The position numbers and the translations under genes are program-made. DNA of 64,000 nt. Origin: Vampirovibrio chlorellavorus (GTDB taxonomy: Bacteria > Cyanobacteriota > Vampirovibrionia > Vampirovibrionales > Vampirovibrionaceae). Positions within the stretch are counted from its first letter, which is position 1, and the number at the start of each line of letters is the position of its first letter. The stretch is taken from the NCBI RefSeq assembly GCF_003149375.1, contig NZ_QFWH01000001.1, forward strand, positions 150,753-214,752, in the 5' to 3' direction. Below are positions 30,728-37,534 of the stretch, one piece after another. A model generated the notes under the pieces. The model did not search any database. It saw only the letters and a list, made by a program, of their open reading frames with translations, and was not told the origin of the DNA.

Positions 30728-30758
30728 TTGACAAAGCAGGCCCACGAGCGGCTATGAT
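30728..30758 (+). promoter_or_regulatory. trp operon promoter
   Basis: TTGACA at 30728-30733 and TATGAT at 30753-30758, 19 nt apart; a slightly shifted -10 would give a more usual spacing. It lies about 35 bp upstream of the trp leader peptide. Confidence 0.6.
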
Positions 30759-30793
30759 AGTAGCTCAACGTCAATAACGACCCAGTAATTTTC

Positions 30794-30886
30794 ATGCTTT
30801 CAACCGAAACACAACCAACCCAATTGCAGCAGTGGTGGTGGAGCCAACCGCTCACTGGCCTGTCGGGCTGGATTGATTACCCTTGA
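30794..30886 (+). CDS. trpL: trp operon leader peptide (TrpL) with WWW
   Basis: A 30-codon ORF not previously called, beginning MLSTETQPTQ and containing QQWWWSQP with three consecutive Trp codons at 30833-30841. A fourth Trp codon lies at 30869-30871. It sits between the promoter and trpE and is followed by a terminator hairpin with a U run. These are the features of a translational attenuator: ribosomes stall at the Trp codons when charged tRNA-Trp is scarce. No strong ribosome binding site is seen before the ATG. Four Trp in 30 residues in exactly this place is very unlikely by chance. Confidence 0.88.
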   Translation: MLSTETQPTQLQQWWWSQPLTGLSGWIDYP

Positions 30887-30945
30887 ACGCATTGCTCGTA
30901 ATTGACTCCAGATTTCCAGAAAGCAGGCCCCCGGGTCTGTTTTTT
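30857..30945 (+). promoter_or_regulatory. trp attenuator: antiterminator and intrinsic terminator
   Basis: Terminator: AAAG-CAGGCC at 30920-30929 pairs with GGTCTG-TTTT at 30934-30943 (10 bp, two G-U), followed by more T residues. Antiterminator: GGCCTG at 30857-30862 pairs with CAGGCC at 30924-30929, and CTGGA at 30868-30872 pairs with TCCAG at 30915-30919. The two structures share 30924-30929 and exclude each other. A ribosome stalled on the WWW codons leaves 30857-30872 free, so the antiterminator can form. One at the stop codon (30884-30886) covers its 3' half, so the terminator forms. Confidence 0.82.
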
Positions 30946-31000
30946 CGTTTTTAGCCTTGAATTTTAGCTTGAAATCAAACGCATTGGAGCCCCTGCCGTT

Positions 31001-32467
31001 ATGCCCCTGACCATTCAAAGTTACCTGTCGGACACCGAGACGCCCGTGTCCCTATTTCACCGCCTGCAATCGGCCTTTCCCCTGATGTTTCTGCTGGAAA
31101 GTACCGACGGGGACCGGCAGGTGGGCCGCTTCTCCATCATCGGACTGGATGCCGTGCTGAGTTTTCGCTTGAAAAACGGGGCGGCCATTATCCAGAATCA
31201 CCGGGAAGGCACCGAGCGGCTGGAAACCTGCACCGACCCCATGGGCCGCTTGCGGGCCCTGCAACAGGAAACCTTGCCCCCGCTGGAAACGCTGCCCCCC
31301 GAATATAGCGATTTGCCCCTGACCGCCGGGTGGGTAGGGTATTTGGGCTATGGCACCACCCAGTATTTTGAGCGGATTCCTCAACCCGCCGAGGACGTAT
31401 TGAAAGTGCCCGATGTGTACATGGGCCTGTACGATTCGGTGATTATTTTCGATCACCTGTATCGGCGGATTCACCTGGTCTCTCACCGGGAAGCCGCAGA
31501 AACCCACCGGCTGTTCCAGACCGTTCAGCAGGCCCTGAACCAGCAAACTCAGGAACTCCACTTGCTCACCCTGCCCCAACTCTGTGATGAGCAGGTTTTT
31601 GACACCGTCCAGTACGCCACCCCCAAAGCCGATTTTATGAAGGCCATCCATCAGGCCAAGCAGTGGATTGTGGAAGGGCAAATTTTCCAGATTGTGCTGG
31701 CCCAGCGCTTCTCGTTACCGGTACAGTGCCGCCCGCTGGATATTTACCGCACGGTGACCGCCATCAATCCCTCTCCTTACGCCTATTACCTCAAATTCCC
31801 GGAGTTCGTTTATCTGGGGTCCTCCCCGGAGACCTTTGTGCGCTGCCGTAACGGGCAAGTAACGCTGAAAGCCTTGGCCGGCACCCGCCCCCGGGGCAAG
31901 TCGGAAGCGGATGACATCAGTTTGGCTGAAGAGCTGCGGGCCTGCCGCAAGGAAATGGCCGAGCATCGCATGCTGGTGGACCTGGGCCGTAACGATTTAG
32001 GGCGCATTTGCCAACCGGGCAGCATTGCGGTGGGAGAAATCGCCCAAATCCTCCGATACACCCATGTCATGCACCTCGCTACAGAAATCACCGGCAAGCT
32101 CCGGGAGGGCTTGAGCGGCTATGATGCCCTGAGAAGTTGCTTCCCTCGAGGCACCGTGAGTGGCGCTCCCAAAATTCGGGCCATGCAGTTGCTGGCCAAG
32201 CTGGAACCGGAGCAGCGGGGCGTTTATTCTGGAATGGTGGGTTACATCGACGCCAGTGGGAACGCCGATGGGGCCATCGCCATTCGCTCCGCCCTCATTC
32301 AGGAGAATACGGCTCACATTCAGGCCGGAGCTGGCATTGTGCATCACTCCGTGCCGGAATCCGAATACGAAGAAACCCGCAACAAGGCCAAAAGCATGAT
32401 TAAAGCCATTCTGATGGCGGAAAGGATGGACGCCGATGCCCGCAGCGCAACCCGTCGTGATTATTGA
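31001..32467 (+). CDS. trpE: Anthranilate synthase component I, TrpE
   Basis: Converts chorismate and ammonia to anthranilate with TrpG. 488 residues. The N-terminal LLEST motif (residues about 30-34), which binds feedback tryptophan in known TrpE proteins, is present. The C-terminal chorismate-binding domain shows the family motifs, for example GTRPRGKSEADD, LVDLGRNDLGRI and FPRGTVSGAPKIRAM. Amino-acid feedback and transcriptional attenuation therefore probably act together. GGAG lies 11 nt before the ATG. Its 3' end overlaps trpG by 32 nt. Confidence 0.96.
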   Translation: MPLTIQSYLSDTETPVSLFHRLQSAFPLMFLLESTDGDRQVGRFSIIGLDAVLSFRLKNGAAIIQNHREGTERLETCTDPMGRLRALQQETLPPLETLPPEYSDLPLTAGWVGYLGYGTTQYFERIPQPAEDVLKVPDVYMGLYDSVIIFDHLYRRIHLVSHREAAETHRLFQTVQQALNQQTQELHLLTLPQLCDEQVFDTVQYATPKADFMKAIHQAKQWIVEGQIFQIVLAQRFSLPVQCRPLDIYRTVTAINPSPYAYYLKFPEFVYLGSSPETFVRCRNGQVTLKALAGTRPRGKSEADDISLAEELRACRKEMAEHRMLVDLGRNDLGRICQPGSIAVGEIAQILRYTHVMHLATEITGKLREGLSGYDALRSCFPRGTVSGAPKIRAMQLLAKLEPEQRGVYSGMVGYIDASGNADGAIAIRSALIQENTAHIQAGAGIVHHSVPESEYEETRNKAKSMIKAILMAERMDADARSATRRDY

Positions 32468-33038
32468 TAATTACGACTCCTTCACCTTTAATTTGTATCA
32501 AATGCTGCAAGCGGAAACGGACGCCCCGGTGGAAGTCTACCGGAACGATGGCATCGATTTCCAAACCTTACTGGCTAAAAAACCACAGCGCATCATCCTG
32601 TCCCCCGGCCCCGGCCACCCGGCGGAACCCTCGGATTTTGGCATTTGCGCCGAGATTATCCAAAAGCAAGCGGAACTGAAGTGCCCGGTGCTGGGCGTCT
32701 GTCTGGGCCATCAGGGCATGGCCCATTATTTGGGGGGTGGAGTCATTGCCGCCCCTGAAATCGTCCACGGGGAAAGCCGCCCCATGCGCCAGGTGGTTGC
32801 CAGTCCCTTGTTTGAGGGGCTTCCGTCCACCTTTGAGGCCATGCGCTATCACTCCCTGTTGGTGGATGAAACGACCCTGCCTGCAGATTTGGAAATTACC
32901 GTCCGCGATGCCGAAAGTAACATTCCCATGGCCATGCGGCACCGTACCCAGCCCTTGTACGGCATTCAGTTTCACCCGGAATCCATTGGCACCCCGCAGG
33001 GCCAGCAGATTTTAAGGAATTTTCTAGCCCAATGCTAA
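32436..33038 (+). CDS. trpG: Anthranilate synthase component II (glutamine amidotransferase), TrpG
   Basis: Supplies ammonia from glutamine to TrpE. 200 residues, standard length. N-terminal IIDNYDSFTFNL, the oxyanion segment SPGPGHP, catalytic Cys in VLGVCLGHQGMAHYLGG and the His-Glu dyad in GIQFHPESIGTPQG. It starts inside trpE with a large overlap (32 nt). A related PabA could serve folate synthesis too, but the operon context is tryptophan. Confidence 0.95.
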   Translation: MPAAQPVVIIDNYDSFTFNLYQMLQAETDAPVEVYRNDGIDFQTLLAKKPQRIILSPGPGHPAEPSDFGICAEIIQKQAELKCPVLGVCLGHQGMAHYLGGGVIAAPEIVHGESRPMRQVVASPLFEGLPSTFEAMRYHSLLVDETTLPADLEITVRDAESNIPMAMRHRTQPLYGIQFHPESIGTPQGQQILRNFLAQC

Positions 33039-34036
33039 GCCGTGATCAACTGCGCCAGCTCATTCATCTGGAATACAGCGAAGCGGAAACGCTGGATTTA
33101 CTGGGCCAACTGACCCCGGATCACATTACCCCCGCCCTGTTTTCCGATGCCTTGGCCTGCCTGCAGGAAACCGCCCTTCCTTTGGCTGTACCATCCGTAC
33201 CGGTGATGGATTGCTGCGGTACTGGCGGCAGCGGATTGCCCCACTTTAATACCTCTACCACGGTGGCCTTTATTTTGGCGGCAGCGGGCATCCCAGTGGT
33301 GAAGTTCGGGAATCGGGGCTTTAGCAGCGCCAGCGGCAGTTTTGATCTGTTGGCTCAACTAGGCTTTTCGGAGCGGATGGACTTGCATCGCATCCCGGAA
33401 GTGTTGGCCCAATGCGGTCTGGTTTTTCTGTTCGCCCCGCAATGTTATCCACAATTGGCCGGGTTTAACCAGTTGCGTCGTACCTTGAAAACCCGCACCC
33501 TGTTTAATTTTTTGGGCCCCTTGCTCAATCCGGTGAAACCCGCCTATCGGCTGCTGGGCGTTTCCCACCCCGGTATGCAACAACGCATGGCCGATTATTT
33601 AATCAGCACCGGTACCTGTGAGCGGGGTTGGATCGTAAATGCCGAATCCGGTTTGGATGAACTGGATATCCACGGCAACACGCAGGTACTGCAACTGGAG
33701 CAAAATCGCGTTTCTGAAATCACTCTTTCCCCGTCTGATTTTTCAGCTAATTTCTCGTCTGATGCGCTGTCTAAAAATAGCCACCATGAATTGCCACCCA
33801 ACGCGCATCGTCCTACGGAGAATTTGAAAATTTTTATGCGACTGCTTCAAGGGGACGATGATCAATCGCCGTATTATGACATGGTATGCCTGAATGCCGG
33901 TGCGGGCTTGCTCATCGCCCAAAAAACTCCCACGCTGAAGGAAGGCATTCAGGAAGCCAAACAGATTTTAAAAAGCGGAAAAGCATTACACACGCTGGAA
34001 CAATGCCGGAGGGTCAATGAACAGTTTGCCTGCTGA
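33032..34036 (+). CDS. trpD: Anthranilate phosphoribosyltransferase TrpD
   Basis: Transfers phosphoribosyl from PRPP to anthranilate. 334 residues, usual length. The glycine loop DCCGTGGSGLPHFNTST and the anthranilate-site motif are present; the latter reads KFGNRGFSSASGSFDLL where many enzymes have KHGNR. NFLGPLLNP is also conserved. Overlaps trpG by 7 nt and trpC by 20 nt. It is separate from trpG, unlike the fused enterobacterial form. Confidence 0.95.
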   Translation: MLSRDQLRQLIHLEYSEAETLDLLGQLTPDHITPALFSDALACLQETALPLAVPSVPVMDCCGTGGSGLPHFNTSTTVAFILAAAGIPVVKFGNRGFSSASGSFDLLAQLGFSERMDLHRIPEVLAQCGLVFLFAPQCYPQLAGFNQLRRTLKTRTLFNFLGPLLNPVKPAYRLLGVSHPGMQQRMADYLISTGTCERGWIVNAESGLDELDIHGNTQVLQLEQNRVSEITLSPSDFSANFSSDALSKNSHHELPPNAHRPTENLKIFMRLLQGDDDQSPYYDMVCLNAGAGLLIAQKTPTLKEGIQEAKQILKSGKALHTLEQCRRVNEQFAC

Positions 34037-34826
34037 TAACGTCCTAGGCACCATCGTGGCCCACAAGCTTGAAGAAGTGGCGAACCGAAAAAAACACCGG
34101 CCACTCAACCAATGGATGAATCAAGTACGGGCCTTTCCCCAGCCACATGCCCTGGAGCGGGCCATTCAACCCATTCACAACGCAACCCAAAAACCGGCCT
34201 ACATTTTGGAAATCAAACCAGCATCTCCTTCTGCCGGGGTGCTTCAGGAAACGCTGGATTTAGCGTCCATATTGCCCATTTATGCACAATACGGCGTGGC
34301 CATATCTGTTTTAACCGATGCCCACTATTTTGGAGGCAGTTTAGAATTGCTGCAATCGGTTAGCCATCAAGTCACCCTTCCCACCCTTTGCAAGGATTTT
34401 ATTATCGATCCCTATCAAGTCTATGAAGCCAGGCATGCCGGGGCGCAGGCGGTTTTACTAATCGTGAAGTCATTGAGCGATTCGCACCTGGCGGAACTCA
34501 ATGAGCTGGTTTTAACACTGGGCATGACCCCACTGATTGAAGTACAGGATGCCGAAGAAGTGCGCCGAGCGCTGGAAATCAACCCTTCTATTCTGCTCAT
34601 CAACAACCGTAATCTACAGACGTTAGAAATGGATCTGTCCACCACGGAGCGCTTATCCCCACGGATTCCAGAGGGCATTCTCAAAATCTCAGCCAGTGGC
34701 ATTCAGAACAAAGCCGATATTGTGAGATTGCAGTCCCACTGCGATGGCTTCTTAATCGGCTCCGCACTCATGCGGGAACCCACCCCAGAAGCACTGATCC
34801 AAAAACTGCAGGCGTTATTGGCATGA
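34017..34826 (+). CDS. trpC: Indole-3-glycerol phosphate synthase TrpC
   Basis: Ring closure to indole-3-glycerol phosphate. 269 residues, TIM barrel. The substrate-binding EIKPASPSAGVL motif carries the Glu and Lys typical of the family (ExKxxSPS). Also LCKDFIIDPYQVYEARHAGAQAVLLI and LLINNRNLQTLEMD. GGAGGG lies right before the ATG, which is inside the trpD reading frame. Not fused to TrpF. Confidence 0.95.
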   Translation: MNSLPADNVLGTIVAHKLEEVANRKKHRPLNQWMNQVRAFPQPHALERAIQPIHNATQKPAYILEIKPASPSAGVLQETLDLASILPIYAQYGVAISVLTDAHYFGGSLELLQSVSHQVTLPTLCKDFIIDPYQVYEARHAGAQAVLLIVKSLSDSHLAELNELVLTLGMTPLIEVQDAEEVRRALEINPSILLINNRNLQTLEMDLSTTERLSPRIPEGILKISASGIQNKADIVRLQSHCDGFLIGSALMREPTPEALIQKLQALLA

Positions 34827-35545
34827 TCGCACCCCGAATTAAAATTTGCGGGATCACCAACCCGACCGATGCCATGGCCGCCGCTCAGGCAAGCGCCGAT
34901 TGGTTGGGACTCATTTTTGTGCCCAACACCCCTCGCTTTGTCCCGCTGGAATCGGCCAAAGAAATGATGAGGCAGCTACGAGTGACACATCCGAAGGTAG
35001 AGGTGGTGGGCGTTTTTCAGAATCAATCGCTGCCTGAAATTGAGCATTACCTTCAAATCCTGAATCTGGATCGGGTGCAATTGCATGGCCAGGAAAGCCC
35101 GGACTTCTGCGCTCAGATTTCGGTCCCTGTGGTTAAAACCCTGCTACTCCATCCAGAACTGCCACAACGATCCGAACTGGAAATCTCTGCGCTCCACCGT
35201 CAAGCGGCTGCTTTTTTGGAAATTCCTCAAGTGCAAACCCTGCTCTTGGATCTGCCCAAAGGCAGCGGCAGTTCCAGCGTTTTGGATATGGCTCGTTCAG
35301 ACGCTGATACCGAAACATTGCGCGCTTTCTTATCCGATTTTCCGTGTCTGCTGGCCGGTGGCTTAACCCCGGATAATATTCAGCAAGCCTTGCAAACCTT
35401 CCAGCCCGCTGGGGTCGATGTGGCCTCCGGGGTGGAGCAAGGGCCCGGACAAAAAGACATCGATCAAATAAAGCGTTTTTGTCACAGCGTAAAAAATTTC
35501 AAACCCCAACCCAATCATGGAGAAAACGCATCATGCAATCCCTAG
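34823..35545 (+). CDS. trpF: Phosphoribosylanthranilate isomerase TrpF
   Basis: Amadori rearrangement of phosphoribosylanthranilate. 240 residues. Start motif [12 protein letters not shown] holds the catalytic Cys; general-acid Asp is in the [12 protein letters not shown] region, and LAGGLTPDN and [16 protein letters not shown] close the phosphate site. ATGA overlap with trpC and a 13-nt overlap with trpB. The segment around residues 85-120 is somewhat longer than in common TrpF proteins. Confidence 0.93.
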
Positions 35546-36720
35546 GCTTTTTTGGCTCCTTCGGGGGCGTTTACGTGCCGGAACTGTTAGTACCTGCGCT
35601 GGAAGAAGTGGAAAGCGCCTTTTTAGAGGCCAGTCAGGACGCTGACTTTTTAAAGGAATATCATCATTTACTGAAGCACTACGCCGGACGTCCCACCCCG
35701 CTGTATGAGGCGAAAAATCTTTCCAAACGCTATGGCGCCCGCATCTTTTTAAAGCGGGAAGACTTGCTGCACGGCGGCGCTCACAAAACCAACAATGCCA
35801 TTGGACAAGCATTATTGGCAAAACGTATGGGCAAAACGAGGATTATCGCCGAAACTGGGGCGGGGCAGCACGGGGTGGCCACGGCTATGGCCGGGGCCCT
35901 GCTGGGCATCCCCACAGAAATTTATATGGGCGCCGTGGATATGGAGCGTCAGCAGCCCAACGTGTTTCGTATGAAATTATTGGGGGCCACCGTGCATGCG
36001 GTGGAGGTGGGTTCCAAAACCCTGAAAGATGCCATTAATGAAGCCATGCGGGATTGGGTCAGCAACCTGCAAGACACTTATTACCTGCTGGGCACCGCCG
36101 CCGGACCGCACCCCTATCCCACGCTGGTTCGCTTTTTTCAACAAATTATCGGGGAAGAAGCGCATCAACAAATTCTGGAACAAGCGGGCCGGTTGCCCGA
36201 TCAAGTGGTGGCCTGTGTGGGCGGAGGCTCCAATGCCATCGGGATTTTTCAGGGCTTCCGCAATAGCAGCGTTCAACTGGTCGGGGTAGAGCCCGCCGGA
36301 TTGGGCCTAGAGACCGAGCATCATGGGGCGGTATTGGCCAAAGGCACCCCCGGCTGTTTGCACGGCATGAAGAGTTTGGCCTTGCAGGATAAAGACGGTC
36401 AGGTGCGAGAAACCTACAGCATTTCCGCCGGACTGGACTACCCCTTGGTGGGCCCGGAACACGCCCACCTGCAAAACACTGGGGAGGCCGTTTATGCTTC
36501 TGCCACGGACGCGGAGGCCTTGGCCGCCTTCCATACGCTGGCCGAAACCGAGGGCATTTTGCCCGCACTGGAATCCTGCCATGCGCTGGCCTATGCCCAA
36601 ACGCTGGCCGTTCAGGGAACGCCGGAGCAGATTATCTTGATCAATCTCTCCGGTCGAGGCGATAAAGATTTACACCAAGTCATGGCCCAGCAGGAGGGAG
36701 CCCCGCATGTCCACGCTTAA
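35533..36720 (+). CDS. trpB: Tryptophan synthase beta chain TrpB
   Basis: PLP enzyme that joins indole and serine. 395 residues from the ATG at 35533 (GGAG 10 nt upstream). FGGVYVPE start, PLP lysine K85 in [17 protein letters not shown], the phosphate-binding loop GGGSNAIG, and [10 protein letters not shown]-like [10 protein letters not shown]. It belongs to the TrpB1 class that partners TrpA. Overlaps trpF and trpA. Confidence 0.96.
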
Positions 36721-37534
36721 ACAAGCCCAAACTCAGTCTCGTTATGACGATTTGTTCGCCCGCCTGAAACAGGAAAAACGCCACGCCCTAATCCCCTTTA
36801 CTTTGCTGGGATGGCCCACACCTCAACGGTGTCTGGAGAGCGTGGATGCCTTTGTGGCCGGTGGGGCCAGCGCCTTGGAGCTGGGGCTGGCGTTTAGCGA
36901 TCCGGTGGCCGATGGGCCACTCATTCAGCAAGCGGGCCGAACGGTTCTGGAAGCAGGCTTTGATGTGGATCAGACCTTGGGTTTGCTGAAACAAATTCGG
37001 CAAAAATATCCGCACATTCCGATTAGTTTATTGGTGTATTACAACCTGGTACTGGTTCGGGGCATTGATCGCTTTTGCCGGGATATTACCGAAGCGGGCG
37101 CCGATGGCTTGCTGATTGCTGATTTACCGGTGGAAGGCATCGCCGAAATCAAACCCGCGCTGGATCAGCATGGCTTGCAGCTCACCTCCATTATTTCCAC
37201 CCGCACCAGCGCGGAGCGTTTGCCCAAAATTGCGGCCCAATCCGGTGGTTTTTTATACGCCGTTTCCCGTCTTGGCATTACCGGGGTGGAAGAACGCTAC
37301 GATCAATCGCTGGGCCATTTATTGGCGCAGGCGCGCCAGTGTTCCGACTTACCTGTGTGCGTGGGTTTTGGCATCTCCAAACGAGAGCATGTGGAAACCA
37401 TGATTCGCTTGGGGGCCGATGGAGTCATTGTGGGGTCCGCGGTCATGGCCAAAATACAGGAACTCGGGCCGGAGGATTCCATAGAACCCATTCAGCGTTA
37501 TCTTCAAACGTTGTCCACTCCAATCATCCCATGA
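36707..37534 (+). CDS. trpA: Tryptophan synthase alpha chain TrpA
   Basis: Cleaves indole-3-glycerol phosphate to indole, which is channelled to TrpB. 275 residues. The catalytic Glu and Asp lie in [18 protein letters not shown]. Conserved [10 protein letters not shown] and the phosphate loop VGFGISK / [11 protein letters not shown] are present. GGAGGGAG precedes the ATG. Last gene of the operon; a strong hairpin follows 26 nt later. Confidence 0.96.

Follow-up and report, generated by a model that had tools for sequence, protein, structure and literature searches.

A probable ribosome-mediated attenuator of the trp operon in Vampirovibrio, and a similar element before another gene in Gastranaerophilaceae

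Introduction

Is the short, Trp-rich reading frame that precedes trpE in Vampirovibrio, a non-photosynthetic relative of the cyanobacteria, the leader of a transcription attenuator, or does it merely lie next to a terminator? In E. coli, trpE is preceded by trpL, a small leader ORF in which Trp codons stand in tandem and which is combined with competing antiterminator and terminator structures. Vampirovibrio is predicted to make tryptophan (PMC4451040), and the stretch of the V. chlorellavorus genome analysed here (the window, 64,000 nucleotides) carries a seven-gene operon, trpE-G-D-C-F-B-A, with no gaps between genes, behind a terminator at 30918-30945. We put the probability that the element in front of this operon is a ribosome-mediated transcription attenuator at about 0.93, on the basis of its anatomy, its conservation, the covariation of both competing structures, and the fold obtained for each position of the ribosome; in the cell, the leader would have to be translated, the ribosome to stall, and the operon to respond to tryptophan. 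The features are as follows.

30728-30733, + strand, -35-like hexamer TTGACA (from the sequence; kept in the two closest species)
30753-30758, + strand, -10-like hexamer TATGAT (from the sequence; 19-nt spacer, unusual)
30794-30886, + strand, leader peptide ORF MLSTETQPTQLQQWWWSQPLTGLSGWIDYP (ORF call; counterparts in every element-bearing relative)
30833-30841, + strand, UGG UGG UGG, the putative regulatory Trp codons, which contribute to the 5' arm of the protector hairpin as well (sequence, folding)
30857-30862, + strand, region 2a, GGCCUG, 5' arm of the antiterminator (folding; conserved in Vampirovibrio)
30868-30872, + strand, region 2b, CUGGA, which pairs with a UCCAG in a second antiterminator helix (sequence)
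30915-30919, + strand, UCCAG, one partner of region 2b (second copy at 30907-30911)
30918-30945, + strand, intrinsic terminator hairpin and U tract, regions 3 and 4 (folding, shuffles, relatives)
30924-30929, + strand, region 3, CAGGCC, common to antiterminator and terminator (folding)
31001-32467, + strand, trpE, anthranilate synthase component I, with LLES, a putative feedback motif (Pfam PF04715, PF00425)
32436-33038, + strand, trpG (ORF, recognisable sequence)
33032-34036, + strand, trpD (ORF, recognisable sequence)
34017-34826, + strand, trpC (ORF, recognisable sequence)
34823-35545, + strand, trpF (ORF, recognisable sequence)
35545-36720, + strand, trpB (TIGR00263 match; start approximate)
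36707-37534, + strand, trpA (ORF, recognisable sequence)

Results

Anatomy of the trpE leader

The leader ORF has 4 Trp in 30 codons, and no Shine-Dalgarno sequence is evident at its ATG (30794). At the Trp frequency of the trp genes (6 Trp in 1812 codons across the six genes counted), a WWW run has a chance of about 1e-6, the overall base composition of the window being more permissive: WW occurs in 35 of its 1414 short ORFs, and WWW in 4. Among these 35, a terminator lies within the next 150 nt for the leader ORF alone. Region 2 (30857-30872) falls within the leader ORF; its second helix is CUGGA/UCCAG in the window's genome and CUGGG/CCCAG in genome G001. The piece that holds the terminator (30912-30950) folds with z = -3.4, and none of 200 shuffles is equally stable.

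A first-pass annotation, made from the letters alone, had proposed this anatomy. Its WWW leader ORF upstream of trpE is correct to the base, the intrinsic terminator it saw between leader and trpE is confirmed as the stem at 30918-30945, and both pairs of arms, GGCCUG with CAGGCC and CUGGA with UCCAG, lie where it had placed them. Of the TTGACA promoter it named, the hexamer is present and conserved, whereas its assignment as a promoter is weakened by the spacer: a promoter scanner finds 0 promoters here, 19 nt exceeding the length that it allows. The TTGACA/TATGAT spacing (30728-30758) is itself preserved in the two closest species.

Folding of the nascent leader

The nascent leader was folded at successive positions of RNA polymerase, with the bases under the ribosome barred from pairing; these constrained folds assume a ribosome footprint and a start of transcription. 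When a ribosome covers WWW, the probability of the antiterminator GGCCUG/CAGGCC is 0.99 for a polymerase at 30932-30936, and 0.91 at 30940. With the ribosome absent or at the stop codon, this probability is at most 0.13, and that of the terminator is 0.98-1.00 from 30946 on. In the absence of a ribosome, the upstream stretch with the Trp codons sequesters region 2 (P 0.61), in a protector hairpin predicted for the window's genome. The fold thus changes with and without a ribosome on WWW as the stalling model requires. In the complete leader, the terminator form equals or exceeds the antiterminator in stability, even when the ribosome is stalled; the switch must therefore be kinetic. In classical attenuators, the decision is likewise kinetic.

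The proposed course of events is the following. When charged tRNA-Trp is scarce, the translating ribosome would stall on the UGG run at 30833-30841, blocking the protector hairpin to which its own Trp codons contribute; region 2 would then capture region 3 (30915-30929) once this is transcribed, the terminator would come too late to form, and the polymerase would continue into trpE-G-D-C-F-B-A. When tryptophan is plentiful, the ribosome would reach the stop codon, covering or passing region 2, so that region 3 would pair with region 4 and transcription would stop near 30945.

Taken alone, the antiterminator of the window's genome does not surpass those of shuffled leaders in strength (p=0.45); support for it therefore comes from relatives.

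The same element before trpE in relatives

A WWW leader followed by a terminator is found in all five Vampirovibrio genomes (with the cores QWWWSQ, QWWWNQ, QWWWNQ, GWWWRG, and TWWWQS), one of which (G004) is V. chlorellavorus NCIMB 11383. The leader reads TWRWRAI in another genus of the same family (G006), and QWTWWRL in a second family (G010), where it lies upstream of an aroF-trpE operon; both are followed by a terminator. In another order, about 27 genomes of Obscuribacteraceae have trpE or aroF-trpE preceded by a Trp-rich leader, such as GWWRWSQQPGKLMPGW, and a terminator. Each of the 34 elements analysed closes with a hairpin followed by a run rich in U. Conservation in the leaders is highest at the Trp codons; outside these codons, the peptide is poorly conserved, also among the Vampirovibrio genomes. 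The first-pass annotation was to fall if close relatives had no conserved Trp-rich leader or paired terminator upstream of trpE; both are found in the genomes just listed, and its interpretation passes this check.

The element is absent before the related trpE of genome G051 and of family f3, where neither leader nor terminator was found; these loci (L008/L093 in G051; L011, L012, L014, and L015 in f3) are apparent losses or have a different control. Families f5, f7, and f8 have distant TrpE genes, and no Trp leader was seen upstream of these. The TrpE tree places all carriers in one well-supported clade (26 rows), together with non-carriers and two Acidobacteriota; this is compatible with a single origin of the carriers without demonstrating one.

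The two Acidobacteriota loci (L071 and L073, about 900-1150; Chloracidobacterium and a Blastocatellia bin) have a YWYWWSLPG or YWYWRSPSG leader upstream of aroF-trpE. Their leaders also have the terminator and a complementary region 2, and their TrpE belongs to the same clade as that of the Vampirovibrionia carriers; trp operon and attenuator may have travelled together, to judge from the Chloracidobacterium layout and this clade. Two further loci stand apart. In one Obscuribacteraceae genome (G087:C1:172128-172249, L128), a Trp leader, MSLHYTQRASVWWRWSPALRLCCRVF, and a terminator precede a GNAT acetyltransferase and an MBL-fold-like gene. A locus titled 'Actinobacteria bacterium' (L061) matches the Obscuribacteraceae trpE locus L037, and its title is probably a mislabel.

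Covariation of the competing structures

Across the 34 elements, region 2 pairs with the 5' side of its own terminator with a mean of -18.9 kcal/mol; the value is -14.8 when leaders are shuffled and -15.7 when partners come from other species. When partners are permuted among species, 0 of 5000 permutations reach the observed mean, a significance that is overstated by the close relatives among the 34; for the 16 distinct antiterminator core pairs, the permutation p is 0.001. The cores show compensatory changes, with A-U in 13 and G-C in 8 at one position, and C-G in 17 and U-A in 4 at the next; they were picked by eye, a choice that favours pairing, and the counts from the unedited MAFFT alignment agree with them. 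In that alignment, the terminator is 93% paired with 18 double-change cells, a number not reached in any of 500 shuffles, and the antiterminator is 76% paired with 20 such cells, again with 0 of 500 shuffles and with every slid version far lower. Antiterminator and terminator alike thus show the kind of compensatory changes in trpE upstream regions that the early annotation had proposed to look for.

A covariance model (R1) trained on 26 Obscuribacteraceae has matches outside this set, each directly upstream of trp genes, in G093 (E=1e-20), G010 (E=2.5e-5), and G006 (E=1e-3). It gives no match in the window's genome, and those of Vampirovibrio were recognised from their anatomy instead. Weak matches in G291, G117, G091, G023, G010:C85, G228, and G047:C9 are, on inspection, plain terminators or coding sequence. 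In a phylum-wide sample, R1 finds nothing outside Vampirovibrionia; the model is narrow, and photosynthetic cyanobacteria may have Trp leaders.

A version on another gene in Gastranaerophilaceae

More surprisingly, Gastranaerophilaceae have such a switch, with good support from covariation, on a gene without a known biosynthetic role. Weak R1 matches in this family (f6, given its name on the basis of published descriptions of gut Melainabacteria) and in f10 are full Trp attenuators, with the leader MPNLNLNTQSWWHLFxxTGLLSWQ, before a gene without assigned function. At the individual loci (L143-L172 and L220-L239; for example G103:C2:284003-285360), a Trp attenuator lies upstream of an undescribed, all-helical protein of about 400 residues. 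A WW leader precedes each of the 30 best homologues, and nearly all of the 20 sampled next. In the 46 elements with a terminator, the antiterminator has -15.8 kcal/mol, compared with -7.5 kcal/mol when shuffled, and 44 of the 46 are individually significant (p <= 0.05). Over 38 aligned Gastranaerophilaceae elements, the protector is 92.5%, the antiterminator 87%, and the terminator 96% paired; double-change cells number 30 for the antiterminator and 21 for the terminator, both exceeding all 500 shuffles, while covariation in the protector hairpin is weak. A second covariance model has a match in 47 of 191 genomes of the family, one per genome, and those matches that were compared with gene positions lie immediately in front of the gene for the protein.

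In the 42 attenuator-bearing genomes shared with a trpB census, a trpB above the cut-off is present in 5 and found in none of the other 37; most carriers are therefore read, from their gene content, as unable to make tryptophan by the standard route. The AlphaFold model of the attenuated protein is all-helical (mean pLDDT 77), and its hydrophobic helices suggest that it is probably membrane-embedded. Pfam and NCBIfam offer no credible family for it, and a fold search against the PDB gave a best hit of E=0.16, dismissed as noise. In three genomes, the gene downstream is on the opposite strand, and the attenuated gene thus looks monocistronic.

Paralogues in the same genome group (L182-L184, L200-L219) have Met-rich leaders such as MNMMAMMSMQMMMC, followed by terminators. 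Their antiterminators (14 elements) have -13.6, compared with -9.5 when shuffled, and 6 of the 14 are individually significant, a weaker result than for the Trp set. Among the Vampirovibrio homologues (L174, L178, L186, L175, and L188), several carry a CWWC, CWWP, or NWWW leader together with a terminator or hairpins, one of them at G000:C8:146079. Two homologues (L186, L175) stand in tandem in the window's own genome (G000:C8:146079-148718).

Discussion

Alternative readings and known systems

The leader peptide or the terminated RNA could also act in trans, beside or in place of attenuation in cis. The Trp leader peptide of an attenuator can take on a further function, as PMC7298713 describes for the trans-acting peTrpL of Sinorhizobium meliloti; trpL/peTrpL resembles the Vampirovibrio element in being the Trp leader peptide of a transcription attenuator, and differs in its documented trans role. 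Here, nothing suggests a trans target, and with the poor conservation of the peptide outside its Trp codons within Vampirovibrio, we regard such a role as unlikely.

A different Trp-responsive RNA, with the ORF incidental, is a very improbable alternative. The trp genes of Firmicutes are controlled by such mechanisms (T-box, TRAP, or riboswitch). An Rfam scan of the element at gathering thresholds or E<=10, however, yields no Trp_leader (RF00513), T-box (RF00230), or riboswitch, only an irrelevant viral element, and it is the Trp codons that are most conserved in the leaders; in addition, 30766-30935 contains only one GAG/UAG triplet, against an array of about 11 for TRAP, and there is thus no TRAP repeat array. 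A chance Trp-rich ORF beside an ordinary intergenic terminator, a reading that could draw on the fairly common WW short ORFs of this GC-rich window (35/1414) and on an antiterminator which in this genome alone is no better than shuffles, is refuted by conservation and covariation: more than 30 genomes from two orders have this layout, with covarying pairs, in front of trpE or aroF-trpE. We give the chance reading almost no credence.

Read as a ribosome-mediated attenuator of the trp operon, the window element has an ordinary mechanism in what is, as far as could be checked, a new lineage. It resembles E. coli trpL (RF00513) in its leader ORF, tandem Trp codons, competing hairpins, and position before trpE; it differs from it in having no Rfam match, in placing region 2 inside the leader ORF, and in belonging to an unrelated lineage, no sequence homology between the two being shown. 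The trp attenuators predicted in Corynebacterium and Streptomyces (PMC1262725) have 2-3 UGG codons, a GC-rich terminator with a U tract, and mutually exclusive hairpins, and the Vampirovibrionia leaders share UGG codons, a terminator with U tract, and exclusive hairpins with them; the conserved core is gGCC-rGCy-GGCC in these Actinobacteria, whereas it is GGYAAGC/GCUURCC in Obscuribacteraceae.

Meaning of the finding

The first-pass annotation had taken attenuation to be undescribed in Melainabacteria, and this holds within the open-licence PMC literature, where no report on attenuation in Melainabacteria or Gastranaerophilales was found. As far as could be checked, ribosome-mediated amino-acid attenuation is thus described for the first time in the Melainabacteria, a lineage of the cyanobacterial phylum, and covariation across two orders supports it. 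It is likely that attenuation is general in the class Vampirovibrionia and has moved off biosynthesis; the Gastranaerophilaceae Trp attenuator and its Met-leader paralogues would then each be induced when one amino acid with a single codon runs short, plausibly to aid in scavenging it. A role of the protein family in amino-acid uptake is a guess. The Gastranaerophilaceae version would link shortage of tryptophan, and perhaps of methionine, to an uncharacterised protein family in gut bacteria that mostly have no tryptophan synthase, and this link gives the family a testable role.
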